From Acidiferrobacter sp. (lineage in GTDB: Bacteria; Pseudomonadota; Gammaproteobacteria; Acidiferrobacterales; Acidiferrobacteraceae), in NCBI GenBank assembly GCA_027449165.1, contig DAIDMD010000119.1, positions 1 through 36,952 on the forward strand: a DNA stretch of 36,952 bases, given 5' to 3'. A model generated the notes under the pieces. The model was not told the origin of the DNA, made no database searches, and worked only from the letters and a program-made list of their open reading frames with translations. Made by a program: the position numbers and the translations under genes. Shown one piece after another: positions 17,551 through 29,335 of this stretch; the first letter of the stretch is position 1, and every line of letters begins with the position of its first letter.

Positions 17551-18732
17551 ATGATTTTTCGTGTGCTTGTGGCGCTCTACGTCTTGGCCCATGTGTTCAT
17601 CTGGCATGCCCTGGTAGCGGGTCTCGCGCCCCCGTTGTCTGGGCGCATCGGGCTCGGCATCGCGCTTTCGGGCCTCGGGCTCACTCCGTTTCTGGCCCGA
17701 TGGCTGGATCGGCGGGGATTCGGGCACGTCGGCCCTGTTTTTTCCTGGATCGGCTATACCTGGGCCGGTCTTGTCCTATTGTTCGTTATCGCGCGGCTTG
17801 CGATCGATCTCTTGCTGGGGGTTGCGTTTATCCTGGTCGGGGCACCGCCCGAGGAGGCGGTGCGGTCTTTATCGCTTATGCTGACCCTGGTCCTGACCGG
17901 GGCGCTGGCAGTTTACGCGTTTGTCGAGAGGTCGCGCGTTCGCGTCGAGACGATCGACATACCGACGACAAAGGATGTGGGCGCCCCGGGGGTATTGCGT
18001 ATCGCCCAGATATCGGACGTGCACATAGGCCCCATGAACGGCCGCCGGCGTGTCCGGACGCTCTTGAAGAGATTGCAGGAACATGACCCCGACGTCGTGG
18101 TGTCCACAGGCGACCTGATCGACTCGCGGGCCGGGCTTAAGGTGCCCGTGACCGAGGCGCTGTCGGCCTTGAAGCCGCGTCTCGGGAAGTTCGCGGTCGT
18201 CGGCAATCACGAGTACTACACAGGCCTTGCGCCGGCGCTCGCCTTCATGGAGCGCAGCGGTTTCGTGGTGCTGCGCAATGCCGCGGTCACCGTTCCGGGT
18301 TTGCAGCTTGCGGGTATGGACGATCCCGTGGCCGGCAGGCCGGGCGAATTGGCGCGGTCCGAGGCGCGGGTCCTCGCCGGGCTGTCCGAGGAGGTTTTCA
18401 CGGTCTTGCTGAAACATCGCCCCGATGTATTGCCCGGTTCGGAGACCCGTTTCGATCTGCAGCTGTCGGGCCATACCCACAAGGGTCAGATTTTCCCCTT
18501 CGGTTTCCTGATCCGTCTCTACTACCCGGCCCACGCCGGACTCTTTCGTCTGGCGCGCGCCTCCTACCTCTATGTGAGTCGCGGGACCGGGGCCTGGGGG
18601 CCGCCTTTCCGGCTTCTGGCGCCACCCGAGATCACGCTCTTTCGGGTCGGTCCAGGCCGCCCCGCTCCCGGGGGCCGGGTCACGTCGGCGCTGTCTCCGG
18701 TCGTCGCGACGGCCTTTGGCGGCCGGGACTAG
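17551..18732 (+). CDS. Membrane-anchored metallophosphoesterase
   Basis: A 393-residue protein. About four hydrophobic helices fill residues 1-130; then comes a calcineurin-like phosphoesterase domain with all dinuclear-metal motifs in order: AQISDVHIG, STGDLID, VVGNHEYY and LSGHTHKGQ. This is the YaeI/YkoQ type. Some relatives act on UDP-diacylglucosamine or other phosphoesters at the membrane; the substrate here is unknown. I prefer ATG 17551 over the GTG directly before it because GAGG lies 8 bases upstream of the ATG. The stop codon shares the tetranucleotide CTAG (18729-18732) with the stop of the converging kinase gene, so no terminator fits between them. Confidence 0.9.
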   Translation: MIFRVLVALYVLAHVFIWHALVAGLAPPLSGRIGLGIALSGLGLTPFLARWLDRRGFGHVGPVFSWIGYTWAGLVLLFVIARLAIDLLLGVAFILVGAPPEEAVRSLSLMLTLVLTGALAVYAFVERSRVRVETIDIPTTKDVGAPGVLRIAQISDVHIGPMNGRRRVRTLLKRLQEHDPDVVVSTGDLIDSRAGLKVPVTEALSALKPRLGKFAVVGNHEYYTGLAPALAFMERSGFVVLRNAAVTVPGLQLAGMDDPVAGRPGELARSEARVLAGLSEEVFTVLLKHRPDVLPGSETRFDLQLSGHTHKGQIFPFGFLIRLYYPAHAGLFRLARASYLYVSRGTGAWGPPFRLLAPPEITLFRVGPGRPAPGGRVTSALSPVVATAFGGRD

Positions 18733-19904
18733 GTCGTCCGGCTTGCCACCCTGTCCGGCTCGTCGGATGCGGCGGGGAGGCCGGGCAGGGGCTTTATCGG
18801 GACATGGATCCAGAACGTGGCGCCGCGGCCCGGGTTGTTGCGCACCCCGATCTCGCCCTGGTGGAGCGCGATCAATTCTTTGCAGATGGCAAGGCCAAGC
18901 CCGGTGCTTTGTTCGTTCCCCGTCGGCTTGTTGCTGAGCGTCTGGTAGGGCTGGAAGAGGCGGGCCTGATCCTGGGCCGACAGCCCCGGGCCTTCGTCTG
19001 CGACCTCGCAGACGATCTGGTTGCCGTCCGCCGATGTGGAGATCGTGACCCGGGTCTCTGCGGGGCTGAATTTGATGGCGTTGCCGATCAGGTTGTCCAG
19101 TACCTGCAGGAGCCGCAACTCGTCGGCGAGGATATGCGGTATGCCCGGCGAGAACTTGAGTCCAAGGTCGATTCCCTTGCTGTGGGCGTACCCTAAGTTG
19201 TGGGCGACCGCTTGGCGCACGATCGCGCCGAAGTCGGTGGGCTGCTTTTGCAGATGGATGCGGCCGGCCCGGATGGCCCCCATGTCCAGAAGCTCGCCTA
19301 TGATCTGCTGCATGTATTTCCCGGTGTCGATCAAGAGGTCCAGGGCCGATTGATCATCCGCCGACATGGGCTCCCCGTTGGTGGCCGACAGCCGGATCTG
19401 GCTCGCCACGTCGAGCATGAGCATGATCGGCTTTTTGAGGTCATGACTCGCGGTGCGCAGGAAGTGGTCGTTCACGTCTTTCAGGGCCTTCAGGGTGATC
19501 TGGGTGCGCACGCGGGCGCGCACCGTGCTCGCGTCGAAGGGCTTTACGACATAATCGTTGGCGCCGTCGCGCAAGGCGGTCACGATCTTCGTCGTGTCGG
19601 ACGACCCGGAGATGATGATGACGGGGAGGTTCAACGGCGAGCGCTCGGCGCGGATGGTGTTCAGCAGACTTAAGCCGTCGACGGCGCCCGGCAAGTGGAG
19701 ATCGAGCAGAATGAGGTCGAAATCCATCTGCGAGAGCTTCGCTTTCGCCTCGCGAGCGTCGCCCGCGAGCTGGACGGCGTAGCCGTCGCGCTTCAAGCCG
19801 ATGGCAAGCCCGGCGCGCAGCCCGTCGTCGTCGTCGACCACGAGCACCCGGCGTCGCGGCGGCTCGCCGCGGTCGCTGTTGTCCTCGGACACGGTATGGC
19901 TCAT
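18729..19904 (-). CDS. Receiver-histidine kinase hybrid (response regulator fused N-terminally to a kinase)
   Basis: From ATG 19902-19904 the protein has 391 residues. A receiver domain comes first (VLVVDDDDGLRAGL, phospho-acceptor Asp in LILLDLHLPG, Lys in VVKPF), followed by a short helix and a kinase core: H-box LRTASHDLKKPIML, N-box LDNLIGNAIKFSP, G1 DEGPGLS and G2 STGLGLAI. It has no membrane segment. This order (receiver before HisKA/HATPase) is typical of soluble kinases that take phosphate or signals from a partner; no output domain is present. The open frame extends to 20177, but the earlier part looks noncoding; the ribosome site at 19904 is weak, so the start is uncertain. It diverges from the kdp operon across about 600 bases and converges on the phosphoesterase gene. 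Confidence 0.87.
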   Translation of the reverse strand: MSHTVSEDNSDRGEPPRRRVLVVDDDDGLRAGLAIGLKRDGYAVQLAGDAREAKAKLSQMDFDLILLDLHLPGAVDGLSLLNTIRAERSPLNLPVIIISGSSDTTKIVTALRDGANDYVVKPFDASTVRARVRTQITLKALKDVNDHFLRTASHDLKKPIMLMLDVASQIRLSATNGEPMSADDQSALDLLIDTGKYMQQIIGELLDMGAIRAGRIHLQKQPTDFGAIVRQAVAHNLGYAHSKGIDLGLKFSPGIPHILADELRLLQVLDNLIGNAIKFSPAETRVTISTSADGNQIVCEVADEGPGLSAQDQARLFQPYQTLSNKPTGNEQSTGLGLAICKELIALHQGEIGVRNNPGRGATFWIHVPIKPLPGLPAASDEPDRVASRTT

Positions 19905-20504
19905 GGCTGGCGCTCGGACACGGTGGCGTACCCCTCCTGTTGAAGAATAGTCGAGGACGGATGTCTGGCAAGGCGCGTCACGTGCCAGGGCCGGGGCGGG
20001 TGCGTCCCCGTGCCCCGTCCCGGCGCGGTGCGTTTCGGCCGCTGCTCGGCAGCCAGATAATATAACGCCATGAAAACAATACATTAGGGTATCAGCGGGG
20101 GCGGCATGAAGGCCGTCGCCCGGACGGGGGTTTGCCCCGGGGGTCGGTGTGTTCGTGTGCGCCCCGGCGTTTTGCAAAATTCGGGCGCCTTAATTCCGGC
20201 CGCGAACGTCATGGGCGACGTGCCGGCGGCCGCCGGCCTTTGCGGATGCCGCGCGGGGCCTATGCGCCCTGCGTGGAGGCCGATAGATCTCTTGGGCGGC
20301 GGCGCGGGTCGGGGCGGGTCGCATGTCTCGTCTGCCAGAGGGATCGGCCGGAAGAGATCTAGGATGGCCGGCGCGTTCGTGATAGATTTTGCCGTTCGTC
20401 GCGTCCGAAGTGCCGTCTCTCACGGTAACGCGAGATCGGTGTCCGGCGGGTTGCGGTCCTTGGCCGCGCCCAGGGCGGGAATCGGGAATGAGAGGGGTGC
20501 TGCA
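19905..20504. other. 600-base divergent intergenic region upstream of the kdp operon
   Basis: It lies between the receiver-kinase (-) and the kdp block (+). An unusually AT-rich tract at 20055-20094 stands out in this GC-rich sequence and probably marks a promoter, but I cannot place a convincing -35/-10 pair on either strand. A 10-bp perfect inverted repeat spans 20284-20361. Open frames here look like noncoding DNA. The Kdp promoter should be in this stretch. Confidence 0.45.
20284..20361 (+). repeat. 10-bp perfect inverted repeat in the presumed kdp leader
   Basis: TAGATCTCTT (20284-20293) is the exact reverse complement of AAGAGATCTA (20352-20361); 58 GC-rich bases lie between. If transcribed with the kdp genes it could close a long stem around a structured loop; on DNA it could be a paired binding site. 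No known riboswitch class is recognised. Confidence 0.4.
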
Positions 20505-20612
20505 TTGTTTTGGATCATGGGAGCGTCGTTCGTTGCGGTCTACGGGCTCCTTGCGGGTCTTATCCGCTTTTCGGAATCCATCATCCGGACTCGCGAAGGG
20601 GGGAACGCATGA
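20505..20612 (+). CDS. Small membrane protein overlapping kdpF (35 aa)
   Basis: A short frame, starting at TTG 20505 (AGAGGGG 7 bases upstream) or ATG 20517, encodes about 31-35 residues: one hydrophobic helix (MGASFVAVYGLLAGLIRFSE) followed by a basic tail (SIIRTREGGNA). Its TGA (20610-20612) overlaps the kdpF ATG in an ATGA junction, the arrangement of translationally coupled genes. The good ribosome site, the single-helix architecture and the coupling suggest it is real and belongs to the Kdp complex or its assembly. I do not recognise a named family. Confidence 0.55.
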   Translation: MFWIMGASFVAVYGLLAGLIRFSESIIRTREGGNA

Positions 20613-20689
20613 TGGATGTGTTGCTTGGGTTGGTCGTCGCGGTGGCGGCCTACCTGGTTTACGCGATCTTGTACCCGGAGCGGTTCTGA
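20609..20689 (+). CDS. kdpF: KdpF, small subunit of the K+-transporting ATPase
   Basis: This 26-residue frame is too short for most gene finders: MMDVLLGLVVAVAAYLVYAI then LYPERF. One hydrophobic helix ending in L-x-P-E-R/K-F is the KdpF signature. KdpF is a single-pass peptide that stabilises the KdpABC complex in the cytoplasmic membrane. AAGGGGGGAA lies 5-7 bases before the ATG. It overlaps the preceding small ORF by four bases and ends three bases before kdpA, so the genes are translated together. Confidence 0.9.
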   Translation: MMDVLLGLVVAVAAYLVYAILYPERF

Positions 20690-20692
20690 GGG

Positions 20693-22441
20693 ATGAGTCC
20701 GGGCGCCTTTTGGCAGATCGTCCTTGAGCTCCTGGTGGCGGGCGCCATCAGCGTGCCTTTCGGCCATTACCTGGCTCGTGTCTTTCAGGACCAGAAGACG
20801 ATACTCGACCCGGTCCTGGATCCGGTCGATCGCCTGATCTATCGCCTCATAGGGCGGGACGTCGTGGACCAGGCGATGGATTGGAAGGGTTATGCGGCCA
20901 ATATGCTGCTTACCAATCTCCTGATGGGGCTTTTGATCTACACCATCCTCTCCTGGCAAGGGCATTTGCCGTGGAATCCGCTGCATTTTCCCGACGTCGG
21001 CCCGTTCCTGGCCTTCAACACGGCGGCAAGCTTCATCACCAATACCAATTGGCAGAACTACGGCGGCGAGTCCACGCTTTCGCTCTTTAGCCAGATGGCG
21101 GCCATCACCTTCCCGATGTTCACCTCGGCGGCCACCGGCTTTGTCGTGGCCATCGCGTTTTTCCGGGCGCTCGGGCCGGCCCGCGACAAGGGCCGCAATC
21201 TCGGCAATTTTTACCGGGACTTCGTGCGCGTGCTCACGCGCGTCTTTCTCGTGCCGTGTCTGTTCATCACCCCGATCCTGGTCTGGCAGGGGTCGCCGGA
21301 GACGCTCACGGGCATGGTCACGGCGCACCTCGTCCAGGGCGGCTTGCAGCACATACCGATGGGGCCGGTTGCCGACCTTGAGGTCATCAAGCATTTGGGC
21401 ACGAACGGCGGCGGTTTCTTCAACGCCAATTCGGCGCACCCTTTCGAGAATCCGACGCCCTTATCGAACATCATCGAGACCCTCCTCATGATGGTGACGC
21501 CGATGGCGCTTGTCGTCGCCTTCGGGCGCATGGTAGGGAACCCGAAGCTTGCGCGCGTCATGTACGGCGTCATGGGGTCTATGCTGGTGGCGGCGTTGTT
21601 CATCGCGGTGGCGGCCGAACAGCGCGGCACGCCGCTTCTGGCCCATGCCGGTATCATGCAGCACGCCGGTGCGGGGCAGATGGGCGGCAATATGGTCGGC
21701 AAGGAGGTCCGTTTCGGCATTACCCAAAGCGCCATCTTCGATACCGTCAGCACCGCGTTTACCACCGGATCCGTGAATTCCATGCTCGACAGCTATACGC
21801 CGATAGGCGGTATGGTCTCGCTCGTGCAAATGATGCTGAACTGCGTGTTCGGCGGCAAAGGCGTCGGGATTCTCAATTTTTTGATGTATGGTCTATTCGC
21901 GGTATTCATCGCTGGCCTCATGGTCGGCAGGACGCCGGAATTCCTCGGGAAGAAGATCGAGAAACGCGAGATCGTTCTGGCGTCGCTCGCGCTTTTGGTT
22001 CATCCCCTCATCATTTTGGTCCCGGCCGCATGGTCCTTGACGGTTCCTTACGGGGTGAGTTCGCTGGGCAACACCGGACCGCATGGCCTATCCGAGGTCC
22101 TCTACGCCTTTACCTCGGCGGCCGCGAATAACGGCTCGGCCTTCGCCGGCCTGAACGGCAATACCCCCTGGTATAACGTCTCTTTGGGTCTCGTGATCCT
22201 GTTTGGGCGCTATGCCTCGATCATATTCATGCTTGCGCTTGGCGGATCCCTGGCCGCGAAGCCTCCCGTGCAGGAGACCGTCGGAACCCTGAAGACCGAC
22301 ACCGTGCTCTTTGGGGGCTTTTGGTTCGCCACGGTCGTTGTAGTGGGCGCGCTCACCTTCTTTCCGGGCCTCGTGCTCGGACCGATCGCCGAGTTTTTCG
22401 CGCTCTATGCTCACCACGGGGCCCTTGGAGGGGTGCGATGA
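20693..22441 (+). CDS. kdpA: KdpA, potassium-translocating subunit
   Basis: A 582-residue integral membrane protein (usual length 555-600) with about ten helices. The four selectivity-filter regions characteristic of KdpA's K+-channel-like fold are visible: ITNTNWQNYGGE, GTNGGGFFNANSAHPFENPT, TTGSVNSMLDSYTP and AANNGSAFAGLNG. KdpA binds K+ from the periplasm with high affinity and passes it to the KdpB pump. The ATG at 20693 follows kdpF directly. The 3' end overlaps kdpB by four bases (ATGA at 22438-22441), ensuring coupled translation. It is very well conserved and complete. Confidence 0.98.
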   Translation: MSPGAFWQIVLELLVAGAISVPFGHYLARVFQDQKTILDPVLDPVDRLIYRLIGRDVVDQAMDWKGYAANMLLTNLLMGLLIYTILSWQGHLPWNPLHFPDVGPFLAFNTAASFITNTNWQNYGGESTLSLFSQMAAITFPMFTSAATGFVVAIAFFRALGPARDKGRNLGNFYRDFVRVLTRVFLVPCLFITPILVWQGSPETLTGMVTAHLVQGGLQHIPMGPVADLEVIKHLGTNGGGFFNANSAHPFENPTPLSNIIETLLMMVTPMALVVAFGRMVGNPKLARVMYGVMGSMLVAALFIAVAAEQRGTPLLAHAGIMQHAGAGQMGGNMVGKEVRFGITQSAIFDTVSTAFTTGSVNSMLDSYTPIGGMVSLVQMMLNCVFGGKGVGILNFLMYGLFAVFIAGLMVGRTPEFLGKKIEKREIVLASLALLVHPLIILVPAAWSLTVPYGVSSLGNTGPHGLSEVLYAFTSAAANNGSAFAGLNGNTPWYNVSLGLVILFGRYASIIFMLALGGSLAAKPPVQETVGTLKTDTVLFGGFWFATVVVVGALTFFPGLVLGPIAEFFALYAHHGALGGVR

Positions 22442-24507
22442 GCGAGGTTGCGGCGGGCGCGCATGGGCATGCCGAGGTGCGCCGCAAGGGCACGCGCGAA
22501 CTCATGGCGCAGGCCGTCATCGGCGCGTTTCGCAAGTTCAGCCCGCGGGTACAGATCCGCAATCCGGTCATGTTCATCGTCTGGCTCTCGATGTTCGTGA
22601 CCCTGGCGCTGACCTTCGACCCCGCGCTCTTTGGCAGCACGCAGGTCAGCGCCGCCTATAACGGTTTTGTGACGGCCATCTTGTTTTTTACGGTATGGTT
22701 CGCCAACTTTGCGGAGGCCTTGGCGGAAGGCCGGGGCAAGGCGCAGGCCGATGCCTTGCGTCACACGAAGACCGACGTGACCGCGCGGCGCATCGCCGAT
22801 GACGGAACCTTTCAGGTGGTTCCGGCGGGTGCGCTGCGCAAGGGCGATCGGGTACGGGTCGAGCGCGGGGAGATCATTCCGACCGACGGCGAGATCCTGG
22901 AGGGTATCGCATCAGTCGACGAGTCGGCCATCACCGGCGAGTCCGCGCCGGTTCTGAAGGAGCCGGGGACCGACATGTTCTCGACGGTAACCGGCGGCAC
23001 GCGTATCTTGTCCGACTGGCTGGTCTTCAAGGTCTCGGCCGATCCCGGACATACCTTCCTCGACCGTATGATCCACCTCGTGGAAGGGGCCCGCCGCCAG
23101 AAGACGCCCAACGAGATCGCGCTTACGGTGCTGCTCGCGGTACTGAGCCTCATTTTCGTGGTGGTCGTGGCCACCCTGAAGCCGCTTGCCGCCTTTCTCC
23201 ATATCGACCTCGACATCGCCACCCTGATCGCGCTTTTGGTCGCCCTCATGCCGACTACGATCGGGGCATTGTTATCGGCGATCGGGATCGCCGGCATCGA
23301 CCGGGCGACGCGATTCAACGTGCTGGCCATGTCCGGCCGGGCGGTGGAGGCGGCGGGCGACGTGCAGACGCTCATCCTGGACAAGACCGGCACCATTACG
23401 ATGGGCAATCGGCAGGCCACCGAGTTCGTGCCGTTGTCCGGCCGCACCGAGGGCGAGGTGGCGGCGATCGCGCTCGCGGCTTCCTGGTACGACACGACCC
23501 CGGAAGGGCGATCCATAGTGGCGCTCGCGGTGGCGCGCGGCGCCAAGCGCGACCTCGACTGGGAGCAGGGGCAGGGGGTCGAGTTCACTGCCGAGACGCG
23601 CATGAGCGGCACCAACTTGGCGGATGGCCGCAAGGCGCGCAAAGGCGCGGTCGCGGCGGTCGCGCGTTATGTGCAGGAGTGCTTCAAGGCGACTGTGCCC
23701 CCGGAGCTGAAGGACGCGGCCGAGCTTGTGGCGCGCAAGGGGGCGACGCCCCTGGCGCTTGCCATGGACGGCGATCTCGTCGGCGTAATCGGTCTCTCGG
23801 ACGTCTTGAAGCCGGGGATGCGCGAACGTTTCGCCCACATGCGCAGCCTCGGCATAAAGACGATCATGGTGACCGGCGACAATCCGATTACGGCACGCGT
23901 GATCGCCGAGCAGGCCGGGGTCGACGATTTCGTGGCCGAGGCCAAGCCCGAGGACAAGATCCGGGTCATCCGCGCCGAGCAGGCCCGCGGACGGCTCGTG
24001 GCGATGACCGGCGACGGCACGAACGATGCGCCGGCGCTTGCCCAGGCGGACGTGGGCCTGGCCATGCATTCGGGGACGGTGCCCGCGAAGGAAGCCGCCA
24101 ATATGATCGATCTCGATTCCGACCCCACGAAGCTGATAGACGTCGTGGCGATCGGAAAGCAGCTTCTGATCACGCGCGGCGCGCTGACGACGTTCTCGAT
24201 CGCCAACGATGTCGCGAAGTACTTCGCGATGTTGCCGGCCATGTTCATGCTCGCGCTCCCGGGGGTCTCCGAGCTCAATGTCATGCATCTCGCAACCCCG
24301 GAAAGCGCGGTCTTGTCGGCGCTCATATTCAACGCCGTCATCATCCCGATTTTGATTCCGTTGGCGCTGCGCGGCGTACGATTTCAGCCCGCCACCGCCA
24401 ACCACATGCTGGCACGCAACGTGTTGCTCTACGGCCTCGGGGGCCTTGTCGTGCCGTTCATCGGCATCAAGGCCATCGATCTCGTCTTGAGCCCATTCCT
24501 GCGTTAG
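22438..24507 (+). CDS. kdpB: KdpB, P-type ATPase catalytic subunit
   Basis: A 689-residue P-type ATPase (family about 680). The actuator motif is ITGESAPV; its serine (169) corresponds to E. coli Ser162, whose phosphorylation inhibits the pump when K+ is plentiful. The phosphorylation motif is DKTGT with Asp315. Further motifs are KGAVAAV (nucleotide domain), VTGDNPITA and TGDGTNDAPAL (hinge). The membrane helices and the polar residues of helix 5 (IANDVAKYFAMLP) are present. ATP hydrolysis here drives K+ through KdpA. The start ATG 22438 lies in the overlap with kdpA, although the frame is open further upstream. Confidence 0.98.
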   Translation: MSEVAAGAHGHAEVRRKGTRELMAQAVIGAFRKFSPRVQIRNPVMFIVWLSMFVTLALTFDPALFGSTQVSAAYNGFVTAILFFTVWFANFAEALAEGRGKAQADALRHTKTDVTARRIADDGTFQVVPAGALRKGDRVRVERGEIIPTDGEILEGIASVDESAITGESAPVLKEPGTDMFSTVTGGTRILSDWLVFKVSADPGHTFLDRMIHLVEGARRQKTPNEIALTVLLAVLSLIFVVVVATLKPLAAFLHIDLDIATLIALLVALMPTTIGALLSAIGIAGIDRATRFNVLAMSGRAVEAAGDVQTLILDKTGTITMGNRQATEFVPLSGRTEGEVAAIALAASWYDTTPEGRSIVALAVARGAKRDLDWEQGQGVEFTAETRMSGTNLADGRKARKGAVAAVARYVQECFKATVPPELKDAAELVARKGATPLALAMDGDLVGVIGLSDVLKPGMRERFAHMRSLGIKTIMVTGDNPITARVIAEQAGVDDFVAEAKPEDKIRVIRAEQARGRLVAMTGDGTNDAPALAQADVGLAMHSGTVPAKEAANMIDLDSDPTKLIDVVAIGKQLLITRGALTTFSIANDVAKYFAMLPAMFMLALPGVSELNVMHLATPESAVLSALIFNAVIIPILIPLALRGVRFQPATANHMLARNVLLYGLGGLVVPFIGIKAIDLVLSPFLR

Positions 24508-24523: not shown

Positions 24524-25120
24524 GTGTCGCGTATTTTCGGGGCCGCTCTACGCCTGACCGTGGTGAGTTGGGTGGTTTTCGGGCTCGGCTATCCGCTGCT
24601 CGAGGTGGGAGTCAACCAGCTCGCCTTTCCGGCGGCCGCCAACGGCAGCCTTGCGCGGTTCGGCGGCCGCGTCGTGGGGTCGCGCCTCATAGAGCAGCGC
24701 TTTACCGGGGCGGGGTGGTTCCACGGCCGGCCCTCGGCCGTGCACATGAATGCCCGGTCGTCCGGCGGGTCCAACATCGGCCCGTCGAGCGCCCTACTCG
24801 CACGCCATCTGGCCGCCCGCCGCGCGCGGCTTTTGGCCAGGCACCCGGGCCTGGCCGGCCGCCGCCTGCCGGCAGACATGATCACGAGCTCGGGCTCCGG
24901 GCTCGATCCCGACATTACGCCCGCCAACGCCTATCTGCAGGCGCGGTGGGTCGCCCGGGCCCGGGGCCTGCCGCTTGCGGCGGTTCGCCGGCTTGTGGCG
25001 CGCCACGAGCGCCGGCCATGGCTCGGTCTTTTTGGGCAGGCGCGCGTGGACGTCCTGTCCCTGAACCTGGGGCTTGCCCGCATCATGGCCAAGGCCCGCT
25101 ATGCTAGGATGGTGCGCTAA
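24524..25120 (+). CDS. kdpC: KdpC subunit
   Basis: A 198-residue protein with one N-terminal membrane helix (LTVVSWVVFGLGYPLLEVGV) and a periplasmic domain. Family landmarks are SRLIEQRF, FHGRPSAV, ASSGGSNIGPSS-like SSGGSNIGPSSALLA, ITSSGSGLDPDITPANAYLQ and RLVARHERRPWLGLFGQARV. KdpC binds KdpA and KdpB and raises the affinity for ATP. The start is GTG 24524, set by AAGGAGG just upstream; the overlapping ATG two bases earlier is in the wrong frame. It lies 16 bases after kdpB. Confidence 0.95.
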   Translation: MSRIFGAALRLTVVSWVVFGLGYPLLEVGVNQLAFPAAANGSLARFGGRVVGSRLIEQRFTGAGWFHGRPSAVHMNARSSGGSNIGPSSALLARHLAARRARLLARHPGLAGRRLPADMITSSGSGLDPDITPANAYLQARWVARARGLPLAAVRRLVARHERRPWLGLFGQARVDVLSLNLGLARIMAKARYARMVR

Positions 25121-25173: not shown

Positions 25174-26343
25174 ATGAGCGAACCACAGAACACACCCTCC
25201 TCCGCGGGGGAGGACATCCTAAGCACCCTGAAGGAGCGCGCGGCGGGCCGTCTCAAGATCTACATCGGCTCGGCGGCCGGCGTCGGGAAGACCTATCAGA
25301 TGCTGCTCGAGGCGCAGAGGCTGCGAGGCGAAGGCGTGGACGTCGTCTTGGGTTATATCGAGACGCACGGTCGGGCCGAGACCGCAGCGCTCGTGGGCGA
25401 CCTCGAAATGGTCCCTTTGCGCCGGATCCGCTATCAGGACCGGTTTTTTGACGAGATGAATCTGCCCGCGATCCTCGAGCGCCGCCCGCAGATCGTCGTC
25501 ATCGACGAGCTGGCGCATTCGAACATCCCCGGAACGGAGCACCCAAAGCGCTATCAGGACGTCGAGGACATCCTGAAGGCCGGGATCAACGTCATCTCGG
25601 CCGTCAACATTCAGCACATCGAAAGCCTGAATCCCTATGTCGAGCGGCTGACCGGGGTCAAGGTACGCGAGACCGTGCCGGACCGGGTGCTCGCCATTGC
25701 CAGCGAGATCATCAATATCGACCTTTCCGTCGAGGACCACAGGGAGCGGCTGCGGCGCGGGAAGATCTATCCCGCGGAGAAGGTCGAGAGCGCGCTCCGC
25801 GGGTTTTTCACGCCCGAGAATCTCGCGGCCATGCGCGAGATGGCGCTGCGCGAAGTGGCGAGCAAGGTCGAGTATCAGACCGAGGAACAACGGCTGCTGC
25901 GCGAGGCCGGGCCTTTGCGCCGTCCGGATCGCGTGGTCGTCTGTCTTGGGCCGGATCATGGCGCGAACGTCGCCCTGTTGCGCCGGGGGGCGCGGATCGC
26001 CGGCCGATTGAACGCCGACTGGTTCGCGGTCACTGTGGTGAGGCCTGAGCTCGCGCCTGGCAAGGCCTTAAGTCCGGTCCGCAAGGAGTTTTTGAAGCTC
26101 GAACGCCTAGCCGAGGAGCTCGGGGCGCGATTCGAGGTCCTCGAGGCGCACAGCGTCCTCGACGCCCTCGTGAGCTTCGTCGAGGCGCACGGCATCACGA
26201 TGGCGATCTTCGGCAAAAATCGGCATGTGGGCTGGCGCCTGCGAATGTTCAAGTGGCTGACGCTCGAGTTCCTGAACCACACGGACGGCGTCGACGTGCA
26301 AATCGTCGACACCGCCGAACGGGAAGCGCCGACCCGCAACTAG
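25174..26343 (+). CDS. Truncated KdpD: cytoplasmic KdpD sensor domain plus Usp domain only
   Basis: A 389-residue protein matching only the N-terminal half of KdpD. Residues 25-235 are the KdpD domain with Walker A (GSAAGVGKT, 32-40), GYIETHGRAET, Walker B-like IVVIDELAHSNIPGTEHPKRYQD and NIQHIESLN. Residues about 255-375 are a universal-stress-like domain (RVVVCLGPDHGANVALLRRG, ARFEVLEAHS, IFGKNRHVGWRLRMFKWL). The membrane helices, GAF and histidine-kinase core of E. coli KdpD (894 residues) are absent, and the gene ends in a normal stop, not a frameshift. Such stand-alone halves are known in other bacteria. It probably senses ATP, K+ or c-di-AMP-like signals and passes them to the adjacent kinase. 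The gap after kdpC is 53 bases; the kinase begins 8 bases later. Confidence 0.9.
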   Translation: MSEPQNTPSSAGEDILSTLKERAAGRLKIYIGSAAGVGKTYQMLLEAQRLRGEGVDVVLGYIETHGRAETAALVGDLEMVPLRRIRYQDRFFDEMNLPAILERRPQIVVIDELAHSNIPGTEHPKRYQDVEDILKAGINVISAVNIQHIESLNPYVERLTGVKVRETVPDRVLAIASEIINIDLSVEDHRERLRRGKIYPAEKVESALRGFFTPENLAAMREMALREVASKVEYQTEEQRLLREAGPLRRPDRVVVCLGPDHGANVALLRRGARIAGRLNADWFAVTVVRPELAPGKALSPVRKEFLKLERLAEELGARFEVLEAHSVLDALVSFVEAHGITMAIFGKNRHVGWRLRMFKWLTLEFLNHTDGVDVQIVDTAEREAPTRN

Positions 26344-26351
26344 GAAAAGCC

Positions 26352-28157
26352 ATGCTGCGATCATTAAGTAATCGCCTTATCATAGCCATTTCAGCCGTCG
26401 TTCTGCTTCTGAGCGTGCTGGGCGCCCTGCTGGTCGCGCGCATCAGCAATCTGGGCGGCACGACCGAGGCGATCCTTCGCACCAACGCCCAGTCGGCCGC
26501 CATGATGGGCAAAATGCGCAGCGCCGCGCAGGCTTACGGTCTTGCCGTAAACGGCCGGACCCGCGCGCGCATCGCGACGCGCTTCGCCACCGCCTGGCAG
26601 GGGTTCAAGGACGAGAGCGCGGGGTTGCACGTCGGCCCCGAGCGGGAATGGGTCGAAGCCGCCTGGAAGGCCTATCGGCGCGCGCCCAGCGCGGCGCGCC
26701 TCCAGGCACTTGATGGCGCCCTGCAAGACCTCAAGACCGTGAGCCGGGTGGCCATAAAGGCGCGCGAGCACCGCGCGATCGCCGCCATAAAGAACCTCAC
26801 GATTTTCGCGTCCCTCGGCCTAGGCGCCTCTCTGCTCGTGATCCTGGTGCTGTCGGTGTGGATGGTGCGACTCATCCTGCGGCCCATGCGCCAGCTGGCC
26901 CGCAGTATCCATGACCTGAGCCCTTCCGGCGCCCATCGCGAGCTCGAGCGCTACGGCCTGTCGGAGTTTGACGATCTGACGAGGGAATTCAACGGGCTGC
27001 TGCGCCGCCTCGAGAAGCATGAGCGCGGGAACACCGACAAGCTGGTCTATGAAAACGCCAAGATCGACGCCCTCATCAACTCGATAGACGACGGTCTCGT
27101 CCTCCTCGATAGGCAGGGCAAGATCCTCCACGTGAACTTCATGGCAGGGATGCTGCTCCAGACCGAGCCGGGGGAGCTGCTCGGACGGAACGTGAACGAT
27201 TTGAACATAGCAACGCGCTTTTACATGAATCTGCGCAACGCGCTCGTGTCGTTGCGTCGCGAGGACCAGGATGAGCCCCAGTACAGCCGCAACGAATTCT
27301 CCCTGACGATCCGGGGACGCCTCCATTCGTATATCCTGAAGACCGTTCCGTTCCGCGACAAGGGCCGCAGCGTAATCGGACTAATCGTGGTGTTGCAGGA
27401 CGTGACCGAGTTGCGGCACGCGGAACATCAGAGGACGCAGCTTTTGGCGACGCTGTCGCACGAGCTGAAGACCCCCCTTACAAGCTTGAGCCTCAGTATC
27501 GGAACCCTCTACGAGACGGCACAGCAAGAGAACTACCCCCACCAGGTCCGCCAGCTTTTGGAGGTCGGCAAGGAGGAGGTCGGCCGATTGACGATGCTGG
27601 TGGAAGATCTGTTGGACGTCTCGCGTCCTGACGCCATCCGCACCAGCATCGAATTAAAGCCCCTGGAGTTGTGTGAGTTCCTGCGGCGCCAGGCCCACTC
27701 CTTCCATCTGCAGGCGGACCTCCAGGACGTGGACCTGGTCGTCAAATGCCGTCCGGAGGTGGCCGTCAACGCCGACCCCGTAAAGCTCGGCTGGGTGTTC
27801 AATAATCTGCTGTCGAACGCGCTGCGCCACACCCCCGTGCACGGGCAGATCACCATATCGGCCGCGACGCCGACCGAGGAGGAGGTTGTGGTGGAGGTTG
27901 CCGACACCGGGCGCGGCATTCCCGCCGAAGAGTTGCCGCGTATATTCGAGTGGTTCACTCAAGGTGCCGCCGACCGGCAGGGGTCAGCCGGCATGGGGCT
28001 CGCGATCGTTCGCGAGATGGTGGAGGCGCACGGCGGGCGCATCACCGTCACGTCCAAGGTGAACGAGGGCACGCAGTTTCGCATCACGCTTCCGCGGCAT
28101 ATGACCGCGGCGGACCTGCCGCTCCAGCCGATCGTGCCGCTGCCGACGCGTCCTTGA
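26352..28157 (+). CDS. Membrane histidine kinase (HAMP-PAS-HisKA-HATPase)
   Basis: A 601-residue sensor kinase. Helix 1 (LIIAISAVVLLLSVLGALLV) and helix 2 (about residues 153-180, IFASLGLGASLLVILVLSVWMV) flank a roughly 120-residue helical periplasmic region. HAMP follows (RPMRQLARSIHDL), then a PAS domain (about 235-350, LINSIDDGLVLLDRQGKILH), the H-box LLATLSHELKTPLTSL, N-box FNNLLSNALRHTP and G boxes DTGRGIP and GMGLAIV. All catalytic motifs are intact. The layout resembles KinB-like or NtrB/NtrY-like kinases rather than KdpD. The ATG at 26352 follows the KdpD-half gene by 8 bases, and the receiver gene starts 4 bases after its stop. Together these imply one pathway, with this kinase supplying the output missing from the truncated KdpD. 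Confidence 0.93.
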   Translation: MLRSLSNRLIIAISAVVLLLSVLGALLVARISNLGGTTEAILRTNAQSAAMMGKMRSAAQAYGLAVNGRTRARIATRFATAWQGFKDESAGLHVGPEREWVEAAWKAYRRAPSAARLQALDGALQDLKTVSRVAIKAREHRAIAAIKNLTIFASLGLGASLLVILVLSVWMVRLILRPMRQLARSIHDLSPSGAHRELERYGLSEFDDLTREFNGLLRRLEKHERGNTDKLVYENAKIDALINSIDDGLVLLDRQGKILHVNFMAGMLLQTEPGELLGRNVNDLNIATRFYMNLRNALVSLRREDQDEPQYSRNEFSLTIRGRLHSYILKTVPFRDKGRSVIGLIVVLQDVTELRHAEHQRTQLLATLSHELKTPLTSLSLSIGTLYETAQQENYPHQVRQLLEVGKEEVGRLTMLVEDLLDVSRPDAIRTSIELKPLELCEFLRRQAHSFHLQADLQDVDLVVKCRPEVAVNADPVKLGWVFNNLLSNALRHTPVHGQITISAATPTEEEVVVEVADTGRGIPAEELPRIFEWFTQGAADRQGSAGMGLAIVREMVEAHGGRITVTSKVNEGTQFRITLPRHMTAADLPLQPIVPLPTRP

Positions 28158-28161
28158 TCCC

Positions 28162-29335
28162 ATGCCCGCGGTACTCATTGTCGACGACGATCGCAAAATC
28201 CGGCTGACGCTCAGCATATTCCTCGAGCGGCGCGGATATCGCGTGCGGGACGTGGCATCCGTCAAGGCCGCCCTGACGGCCCTGAGGGAGTTTCGCGCGG
28301 ACATCGTTCTGTCGGACCTGAAGATGGAGGGCGAGGGCGGCATCGAGCTTCTGGCCGCCGTCAAGACCGAGCACCCGGCGCTGCCGGTCATCATCATGAC
28401 CGCCTTCGCGACCGTGGAGAAGGCGGTGGGGGCCATAAAGCTCGGGGCCGCCGACTTCATCGTAAAGCCGTTCGCGCCCGCCGAGATCGAGCAGGTATTG
28501 AGCCGCAATATCCATATTCAGGGTCTCGAGGCGGACAGCCGGAACCTGCGCGCGGCACTGGGCAGGGAGGACCTGCTGACCCGATCAGAGGCCCTGCAGG
28601 GGACATTATCCCTGGCCGAGCGCTCCGCGCGAAGCGAGGCGACCGTGCTGGTTGTTGGGCGAGAGCGGCATGGGCAAGAGCATGATCGCCCGGCGTATCC
28701 ACGCGGCAAGCGCACGCCACCAGGGGCCCTTCGTCGAGGTGAACTGCGCGAGTTTTTCGCCGACGCTTCTTGAAAGCGAACTCTTCGGCCACTGTAAGGG
28801 GGCCTTCACGGGGGCGGTCAAGGACAAGGTGGGGCGGCTCGAGTCGACACACGGCGGGACGCTGTTTTTGGACGAAGTCAGCGAATTGTCGGCCGAAGGA
28901 CAGGCCAGGCTCCTGCGGTTCTTGCAGGGTAAGGTGGTCGAGCGGGTGGGGGAGCTGAAGACCCGCGCCGTCGACACCCGCATCATCGCGGCCACTAACA
29001 GGGACCTGCGTCATTCGGTTGCCGGAGAGGGGTTTCGGGAAGACCTTTACTACCGGCTTAACGTGGCGGAGATCCTTATGCCGCCGTTACGGTCGCGTCC
29101 GGAGGGCATTCCGTTTCTAGCGGAACGCTTCCTGGCGCAGGCGGCGGCCCAAAACGGGCTTTCGCCGATTCCGGTCATGGAGGACGAGGTAAGGTCGCGG
29201 ATTGTCCGGTACAGTTGGCCCGGAAACGTTCGGGAACTTCAGAACGTCATAGAAAGATGTGTTATTTTGGCGGGCTGTGGACGCATAACCGCGGAGCATC
29301 TTCCCGAGCGCTTGTCGGCGGACTTCGTGCCCTGA
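28162..29335 (+). pseudogene. NtrC-like receiver-AAA+ sigma-54 activator, frameshifted, without DNA-binding domain
   Basis: Two frames together make one protein. The first (from ATG 28162) has a receiver: VLIVDDDRKIR, phospho-Asp in IVLSDLKMEG, TAFATVEKAV and IVKPFAP. It runs into nonsense after [10 protein letters not shown]. The second frame, from about 28652, continues as [20 protein letters not shown] (Walker A), then [17 protein letters not shown] (intact GAFTGA sigma-54 contact loop), [12 protein letters not shown] (Walker B), ATNRDL (sensor I), [11 protein letters not shown] (arginine fingers) and [17 protein letters not shown]. One extra base at or near 28651 restores [13 protein letters not shown], so this is a +1 shift. 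The protein ends at [11 protein letters not shown], with none of the roughly 60 residues of a Fis-type helix-turn-helix in any frame. It may be a sequencing error, a decaying gene or programmed shifting. Fused length would be about 390 residues. Confidence 0.85.

Follow-up and report, generated by a model that had tools for sequence, protein, structure and literature searches.

Short KdpD, membrane kinase and NtrC-type regulator conserved beside the Kdp pump of Acidiferrobacteraceae suggest a two-layer control of potassium uptake that may be damaged in one genome

In Escherichia coli the Kdp pump is regulated by KdpD/KdpE: a fused KdpD, carrying both a K+-sensing transmembrane/GAF part and a kinase, and a winged-helix KdpE. 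The N-terminal domain of KdpD has been shown to act as an atypical serine kinase with S162 of KdpB as its target, an activity abolished in the E. coli protein when the Walker B glutamate is changed to alanine; short KdpD/Usp forms exist, one of them driven by c-di-AMP (PMC11018627). In Deinococcus radiodurans the pump operon includes a split KdpD (kdpD-N), and close to it a divergently oriented two-component pair supplies a separate kinase and a regulator that binds kdp promoter DNA (PMC5716572). A split KdpD accompanied by a two-component pair is thereby already on record from Deinococcus. Among bEBPs, group 5 (FlgR, CtcC) is described as comprising a receiver and an AAA+ domain with GAFTGA but no helix-turn-helix (HTH), and as acting on sigma-54 promoters that need no enhancer (PMC7175178; PMC3162934). 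In KinB/AlgB of Pseudomonas, as presented in PMC6932827, AlgB has the HTH and no KdpD half lies beside the pair. We found neither a sigma-54 promoter at kdp nor an NtrC-type Kdp regulator described in the open-licence papers searched; the texts of PMC2725144 and PMC12316311 contain neither 'kdp' nor 'potassium'.

The locus considered here lies in a stretch of 36,952 nucleotides (the window) from a draft genome of 2.08 Mb in 171 contigs, 77% complete, and belongs to a family known mainly from metagenome assemblies. All on the plus strand, kdpF, kdpA, kdpB and kdpC are followed by a short KdpD, a histidine kinase and a receiver/AAA+ regulator. The features of the region are as follows (relatives are referred to by our own handles, L for loci and G for genomes).

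18729-19904, minus strand: receiver and histidine kinase hybrid, 391 aa, divergent (Pfam, tblastn)
19905-20504, no strand: intergenic stretch, where relatives have a -24/-12 site and the window has none
20505-20612, plus strand: 35-aa ORF with a single membrane span, overlapping kdpF, present in 16/16 loci having upstream sequence
20609-20689, plus strand: kdpF, 26 aa (PF09604 25.4 bits, cut-off 21.2; TIGR02115 25.0, under its cut-off of 26.85)
20693-22441, plus strand: kdpA (TIGR00680, 649.6 bits)
22438-24507, plus strand: kdpB, with a TGES motif equivalent to E161/S162 of E. coli KdpB (TIGR01497, 1030.7 bits)
24524-25120, plus strand: kdpC (PF02669, TIGR00681)
25174-26343, plus strand: short KdpD, a KdpD domain and a Usp-like domain (PF02702, 297.3 bits), proposed serine kinase for KdpB
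26352-28157, plus strand: membrane histidine kinase, HAMP-PAS-HisKA-HATPase, 601 aa (Pfam)
28162-28773, plus strand: regulator, receiver part, first frame (PF00072), ending early
28652-29335, plus strand: regulator, AAA+ part, second frame (PF00158, PF25601), stopping after AAA_lid_14, with no HTH
28799-28816, plus strand: GAFTGA motif, inside the AAA+ part of the regulator

Coordinates and domain matches agree on kdpFABC, on a short KdpD of 389 aa that ends at a normal stop and on the HAMP-PAS kinase, and the spacings of 53, 8 and 4 bases first given for the genes after kdpC proved exact on re-measurement. The observation from which this work began thus stands in part: gene order, spacings and lack of KdpE hold, but the regulator had been announced as a receiver-AAA+ protein, and its receiver, AAA+ domain and GAFTGA motif, though all present, are divided between two frames.

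Rfam gave no match in the window, and the 35-aa ORF matches nothing in Pfam or NCBIfam; another small ORF occupies the same position before kdpF in L057-L059 and before the kdpF of a second pump, kdp1, to which we return. The receiver-kinase hybrid neighbours kdp in 14 of the 18 family genomes at 67-88% identity (tblastn), divergently in 13 of these and co-directionally in G013 (L134); none was seen in G010, G015 has only a 30% match, and the contigs of G004 and G011 end too early to be counted. We regard it as a candidate extra regulator of kdp.

The gene order is conserved beyond chance. Among 60 genomes searched, PF02702 occurs in 17 of the 18 from the family (G008 has none), and comparison of the window with 16 relative loci – 17 in all – showed kdpC, a short KdpD of 388-389 aa and the kinase in the same order in every one. 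An NtrC-type regulator comes next in all 16 loci long enough to reach it, L050 ending inside the kinase; L046 begins inside kdpB and has its kdpA on another contig. Conservation of the order had been named beforehand as a check, and it held. The gap between short KdpD and kinase is 7-8 bases (16/16 measured) and that between kinase and regulator -1 to 4 bases in 15/16 (182 in L049); kdpC is separated from the short KdpD by -20 to 90 bases in 14/17, with outliers of 256 (L054), 526 (L047) and 1268 bases (L043). The last of these gaps holds ORFs, and its counterpart in the window measures 53 bases. In the single-contig genome G005 (L045), kdpA matches in two frames near residues 518-535. A wider contig scan returned 14 loci with no case outside the family, and viral contigs yielded no such locus; plasmid searches with the regulator and the kinase gave generic matches, at least in the thousands, and were discarded.

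That no OmpR-type kdpE is present was part of the original prediction, and the evidence agrees. In the draft genome of the window, 77% complete, neither a KdpE-like gene nor a full-length KdpD was found: E. coli KdpE matches there with 35% identity and 108.9 bits at best, and the short KdpD is the one PF02702 protein. The best match across the 18 family genomes is 129.7 bits (37%), far below the 297-305 bits (62-63%) of the order-level controls G021, G026 and G034, which have full-length KdpD. A kdpD/kdpE pair elsewhere, the finding named in advance as contrary, did not come to light in this incomplete draft. Nor is a kinase fused to the KdpD domain in the window, which sets the locus apart from the KdpD/KdpE type. 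Replacement of KdpD/KdpE by a conserved short KdpD, a membrane kinase and an NtrC-type regulator is supported by these data. Besides its short form, G015 has a second KdpD of the full-length type (L006, G015:C136), on a short contig that ends early.

A central issue is what the short KdpD does. The original prediction held that this half would have to signal through the separate kinase; such signalling is not a necessity, because the residues for direct phosphorylation of KdpB are mostly kept. Equivalents of G36, K37, D109, E110 and R190 (E. coli numbering) occur in 17/17 short KdpDs and that of T38 in 15/17, with S in the other two, while KdpB has TGES (E161/S162) in 16/16, the partial L046 being dropped. 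With catalytic residues and target serine both retained, the short KdpD need not act via a partner kinase, and serine kinase would seem, from its residues, the most economical role for it. Y stands in place of tryptophan W39, one of the adenine pair, in all 17 family proteins – as also in the short KdpDs of A. silvanus, D. radiodurans and Trichormus, the three others aligned – so that our claim is that the protein works like the ASK serine kinase, not that it is a member of that group. Likewise, the window's protein scores 369.1 bits with NF038185 (KdpD_non_kinase), under the curated cut-off of 550, and falls outside that family.

Control of the short KdpD by c-di-AMP was considered and rejected, there being neither cyclase nor motif. 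The c-di-AMP motif of Usp domains, given as (A/G/C)XSXSX2N(Y/F) in PMC8214093, is absent, the window having C-L-G-P-D at that place; diadenylate cyclase was found in 0/60 genomes, the window's own being incomplete, whereas the search did recover it in 11 of 14 controls. The short KdpD of D. geothermalis, as described in PMC11018627, is alike in its domain composition, in the two Walker motifs and R190, in E161/S162 of KdpB, in its adjacency to the pump and in that no KdpE was found; our locus differs from it in that no diadenylate cyclase was found, in lacking the c-di-AMP serine motif, in having Y in place of W39 and in scoring under the NF038185 cut-off.

Alternatively, the short KdpD could be a soluble sensor that binds and steers the membrane kinase, the whole being a split KdpD with a new output. 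The near-invariant junction of short KdpD and kinase in 16/16 loci would fit such a relay, as would two loci from another class of the same phylum, L074 (4534-8882) and L075 (4529-8961), in each of which a KdpD-domain protein (369-377 aa) is united with a HAMP kinase and an NtrC-type regulator that has HTH_8. No kdp genes occur in the 10.8 and 12.6 kb around these triads, and N or D replaces the Walker B glutamate of their KdpD domains, which makes kinase activity improbable there. The triads favour a functional link between KdpD domain, kinase and regulator. Yet the family keeps catalytic residues and a KdpB target for which a pure relay has no need, and the kinase tree, although its branches are long and unresolved, does not bring the triad kinases together with those of the family. 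We consider the relay unlikely.

The triad short form was found in 2 of 48 genomes of its class, and PF02702 in 46 of 369 genomes in a class sample and 153 of 398 in a phylum sample. Among the KdpDs of odd length that were fetched, L074 and L075 were the only stand-alone short forms: L076, L077, L078, L083 and L085 are split or end-of-contig KdpDE systems, and L079, L080, L081, L082 and L084 are KdpDs with the TM/GAF part but no matching kinase part.

The regulator is a single ORF of 388-392 aa in 15/15 relatives, stopping just after the AAA lid. Walker A reads GESGTGKS in all of them and GAFTGA is exact in 14 (L048, from G009, has EAFTGA), so that receiver and AAA+ with GAFTGA share one protein in 14/15 relatives, and not in the window. 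Pfam finds a receiver, Sigma54_activat and AAA_lid_14 in the regulators of L042 and L055 and no HTH_8, which is equally absent from the AAA+ half of the window; HTH_8 is present in all five further bEBPs given to Pfam from this genome (a set without L035, L038 and L039), a draft with nine PF00158 matches, two of them weak, and one sigma-54 factor (rpoN). The earlier reading overlooked this missing C-terminal HTH. The regulators of the relatives – receiver plus AAA+ with GAFTGA, no HTH – are alike in architecture to FlgR and CtcC of group 5 (PMC7175178; PMC3162934), but here the regulator adjoins kdp, at least five further bEBPs of the genome have the HTH, and the window's copy is broken. The comparison with D. 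radiodurans is also one of contrast: against its divergent pair with a promoter-binding regulator (PMC5716572), the pair here is co-directional and its regulator an AAA+ activator without a DNA-binding domain. Regulators lacking the HTH may act in other ways. A single-sequence structure model of the regulator reached a pLDDT of 39.5 and was set aside.

Evidence that the target could be the pump comes from the sequence upstream of it. With a hand-written sigma-54 matrix, a -24/-12 site of 13.5-17.8 bits, oriented like the pump genes, was found ahead of a kdp pump in every one of the 15 testable relatives, G004 and G011 being left out where contigs end. Random sequences scored as well in 0-4 of 200 cases per relative, and the four KdpDE-type controls (4/4) reached 4.6, 8.3, 11.3 and 7.7 bits. 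Across 401,408 strand-bases of 12 family loci, there are six sites of at least 13.4 bits, five of which stand before kdp. Alignments of 5 and of 9 loci show no invariant run of five bases upstream of the site, in keeping with activation that needs no enhancer. In the window itself, the 950 bases that precede kdpA contain no -24/-12 site (top score 5.1 bits, with 142 of 200 nulls as good); a pattern scan of the whole window, with 34 matches against 37.2 expected, was uninformative. For the family the data support sigma-54 control of kdp, which the window's genome appears to have lost. The proposal that control of kdp had moved to sigma-54 is accordingly plausible for the relatives and not supported for the window, which has no site and a broken regulator, so the earlier interpretation as a whole is supported in part.

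In the window's regulator the change from one frame to the other occurs at Walker A. This break could be an assembly or sequencing error, the system being intact in the living cell: the sequence comes from a draft, metagenome-type assembly, the gene is unbroken in 15/15 relatives, and dN/dS of both halves is 0.05-0.11 against six relatives, like that of other genes. Both halves look, on these ratios, to be under purifying selection, which makes the break either recent or an artefact. An error in the regulator would not, however, explain why the sigma-54 site is also missing, and only in this genome. We regard such an error as quite possible, if short of probable.

A complication is the existence of a second kdpABC of divergent sequence (kdp1; KdpA about 47% identical) in 10 of the 18 family genomes, mostly just upstream of the first pump (kdp2), for example in L086, L088 and L132-L138; the second KdpB match of G006 is a piece of kdp2, and the window's draft genome has one KdpB. 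Nine of the sigma-54 sites stand before kdp1, 232-255 bases upstream of kdpA1, in stretches where the GGCA and TTGCT columns are invariant (9/9) and the rest aligns poorly; six stand before kdp2, at 275-923 bases. In genomes with kdp1 no site was found before kdp2 (best 2.1-10.0 bits in about eight upstream stretches, the scan covering L042, L044, L045, L048, L049, L051, L052, L055 and L056), so the pump beside the regulator would there rely on read-through or on another promoter. Upstream of the small ORF, most members of the genus and the window share a block around TTCGTGRTAGATTTTGCCG that is not a -24/-12 site, and this block is a possible other promoter. It might even be the real kdp2 promoter, served by a different site-specific factor, with sigma-54 driving kdp1 alone; that the block aligns in most of the genus, window included, and that tandem genomes have no -24/-12 site directly before kdp2 would both agree with this. 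We find it doubtful, for 6/6 testable relatives without a linked kdp1 do have the site upstream of kdp2.

The pair next to the short KdpD might also serve other genes, as KinB/AlgB does in Pseudomonas, its position being incidental and the short KdpD a serine kinase and nothing more. In a tree of 17 regulators the six family sequences join L130 and the two triad regulators (98/94). L130, a protein of 448 aa that adjoins a 595-aa kinase, we take by resemblance to be AlgB-like, so that regulators of the KinB/AlgB type are, together with those of the triads, the closest to the family's. The best non-family kinase matches likewise adjoin a KinB/AlgB-type regulator, in a profile of 398 genomes with three candidates scored in each, which is not exhaustive. 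The family regulator differs from AlgB as described in PMC6932827, which has the HTH and no KdpD half beside it, in lacking the one and adjoining the other. Sigma-54-like sites are numerous elsewhere in G005 (37 against 14 in the control) and G009 (28 against 7), which poses a specificity problem for a regulator without DNA binding and is what a pair with other targets would lead one to expect. Against an incidental position stand the place of the pair in 16/16 loci and the sigma-54 site before kdp in every testable relative, and we judge this reading improbable.

The reading towards which we lean, by a small balance, is a two-layer control of the high-affinity K+ pump that would be intact across the family but impaired in this genome; the gene arrangement suggests that pump activity and pump production come under separate routes. 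In the first, post-translational layer, the short KdpD would phosphorylate the serine of KdpB TGES when K+ is sufficient, and the pump would stop. In the second, transcriptional layer, the HAMP-PAS kinase would phosphorylate an NtrC/AlgB-type regulator whose DNA-binding domain has been lost and whose AAA+ ring would activate sigma-54 RNA polymerase from solution, with no enhancer, at the -24/-12 promoter that precedes kdp, or kdp1 in 10 of the 18 genomes. Gene order, domains, conserved residues, promoter sites, the missing HTH of the regulator and the failure to find a diadenylate cyclase are read from sequence; the kinase activity, the direction of control, the link from regulator to promoter (judged by position and conservation) and the loss in this genome we infer. 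In the window's genome, with the promoter missing and the frame broken, this second layer looks lost or bypassed.

Several observations weaken the two-layer model: the broken regulator frame and absent sigma-54 site of the window, the want of a site of its own before kdp2 in genomes with kdp1, Y at W39, the lack of a c-di-AMP input, EAFTGA in L048 and the use of a hand-written sigma-54 matrix. A broader, joint reading is offered tentatively, as possible rather than probable: the pump would be governed by a stand-alone KdpB serine kinase independent of c-di-AMP and, separately, by an enhancer-independent sigma-54 activator that stayed locked beside its target operon while losing its DNA-binding domain. 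Together with the pump-less triads L074 and L075, this would point to an old partnership of KdpD domain, KinB-like kinase and AlgB-like regulator, whose KdpD domain may serve as a kinase or, once the catalytic glutamate is lost, as a pure sensor.

Three features are new relative to Deinococcus and did not turn up in the open-licence papers searched: an activator that has no DNA-binding domain, a sigma-54 site ahead of kdp and the apparent absence of c-di-AMP. If the two-layer model is true, two jobs of KdpD – pump shut-off by serine phosphorylation and gene switch-on – sit in different proteins, and a lineage in which no c-di-AMP cyclase was found raises the question of which signal drives the serine kinase. 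The family would also offer a bEBP that lacks a DNA-binding domain and has its likely target promoter conserved alongside, in genomes holding several ordinary bEBPs, so that its specificity must come from something else; and in the genome of the window promoter and regulator may both have been lost naturally.
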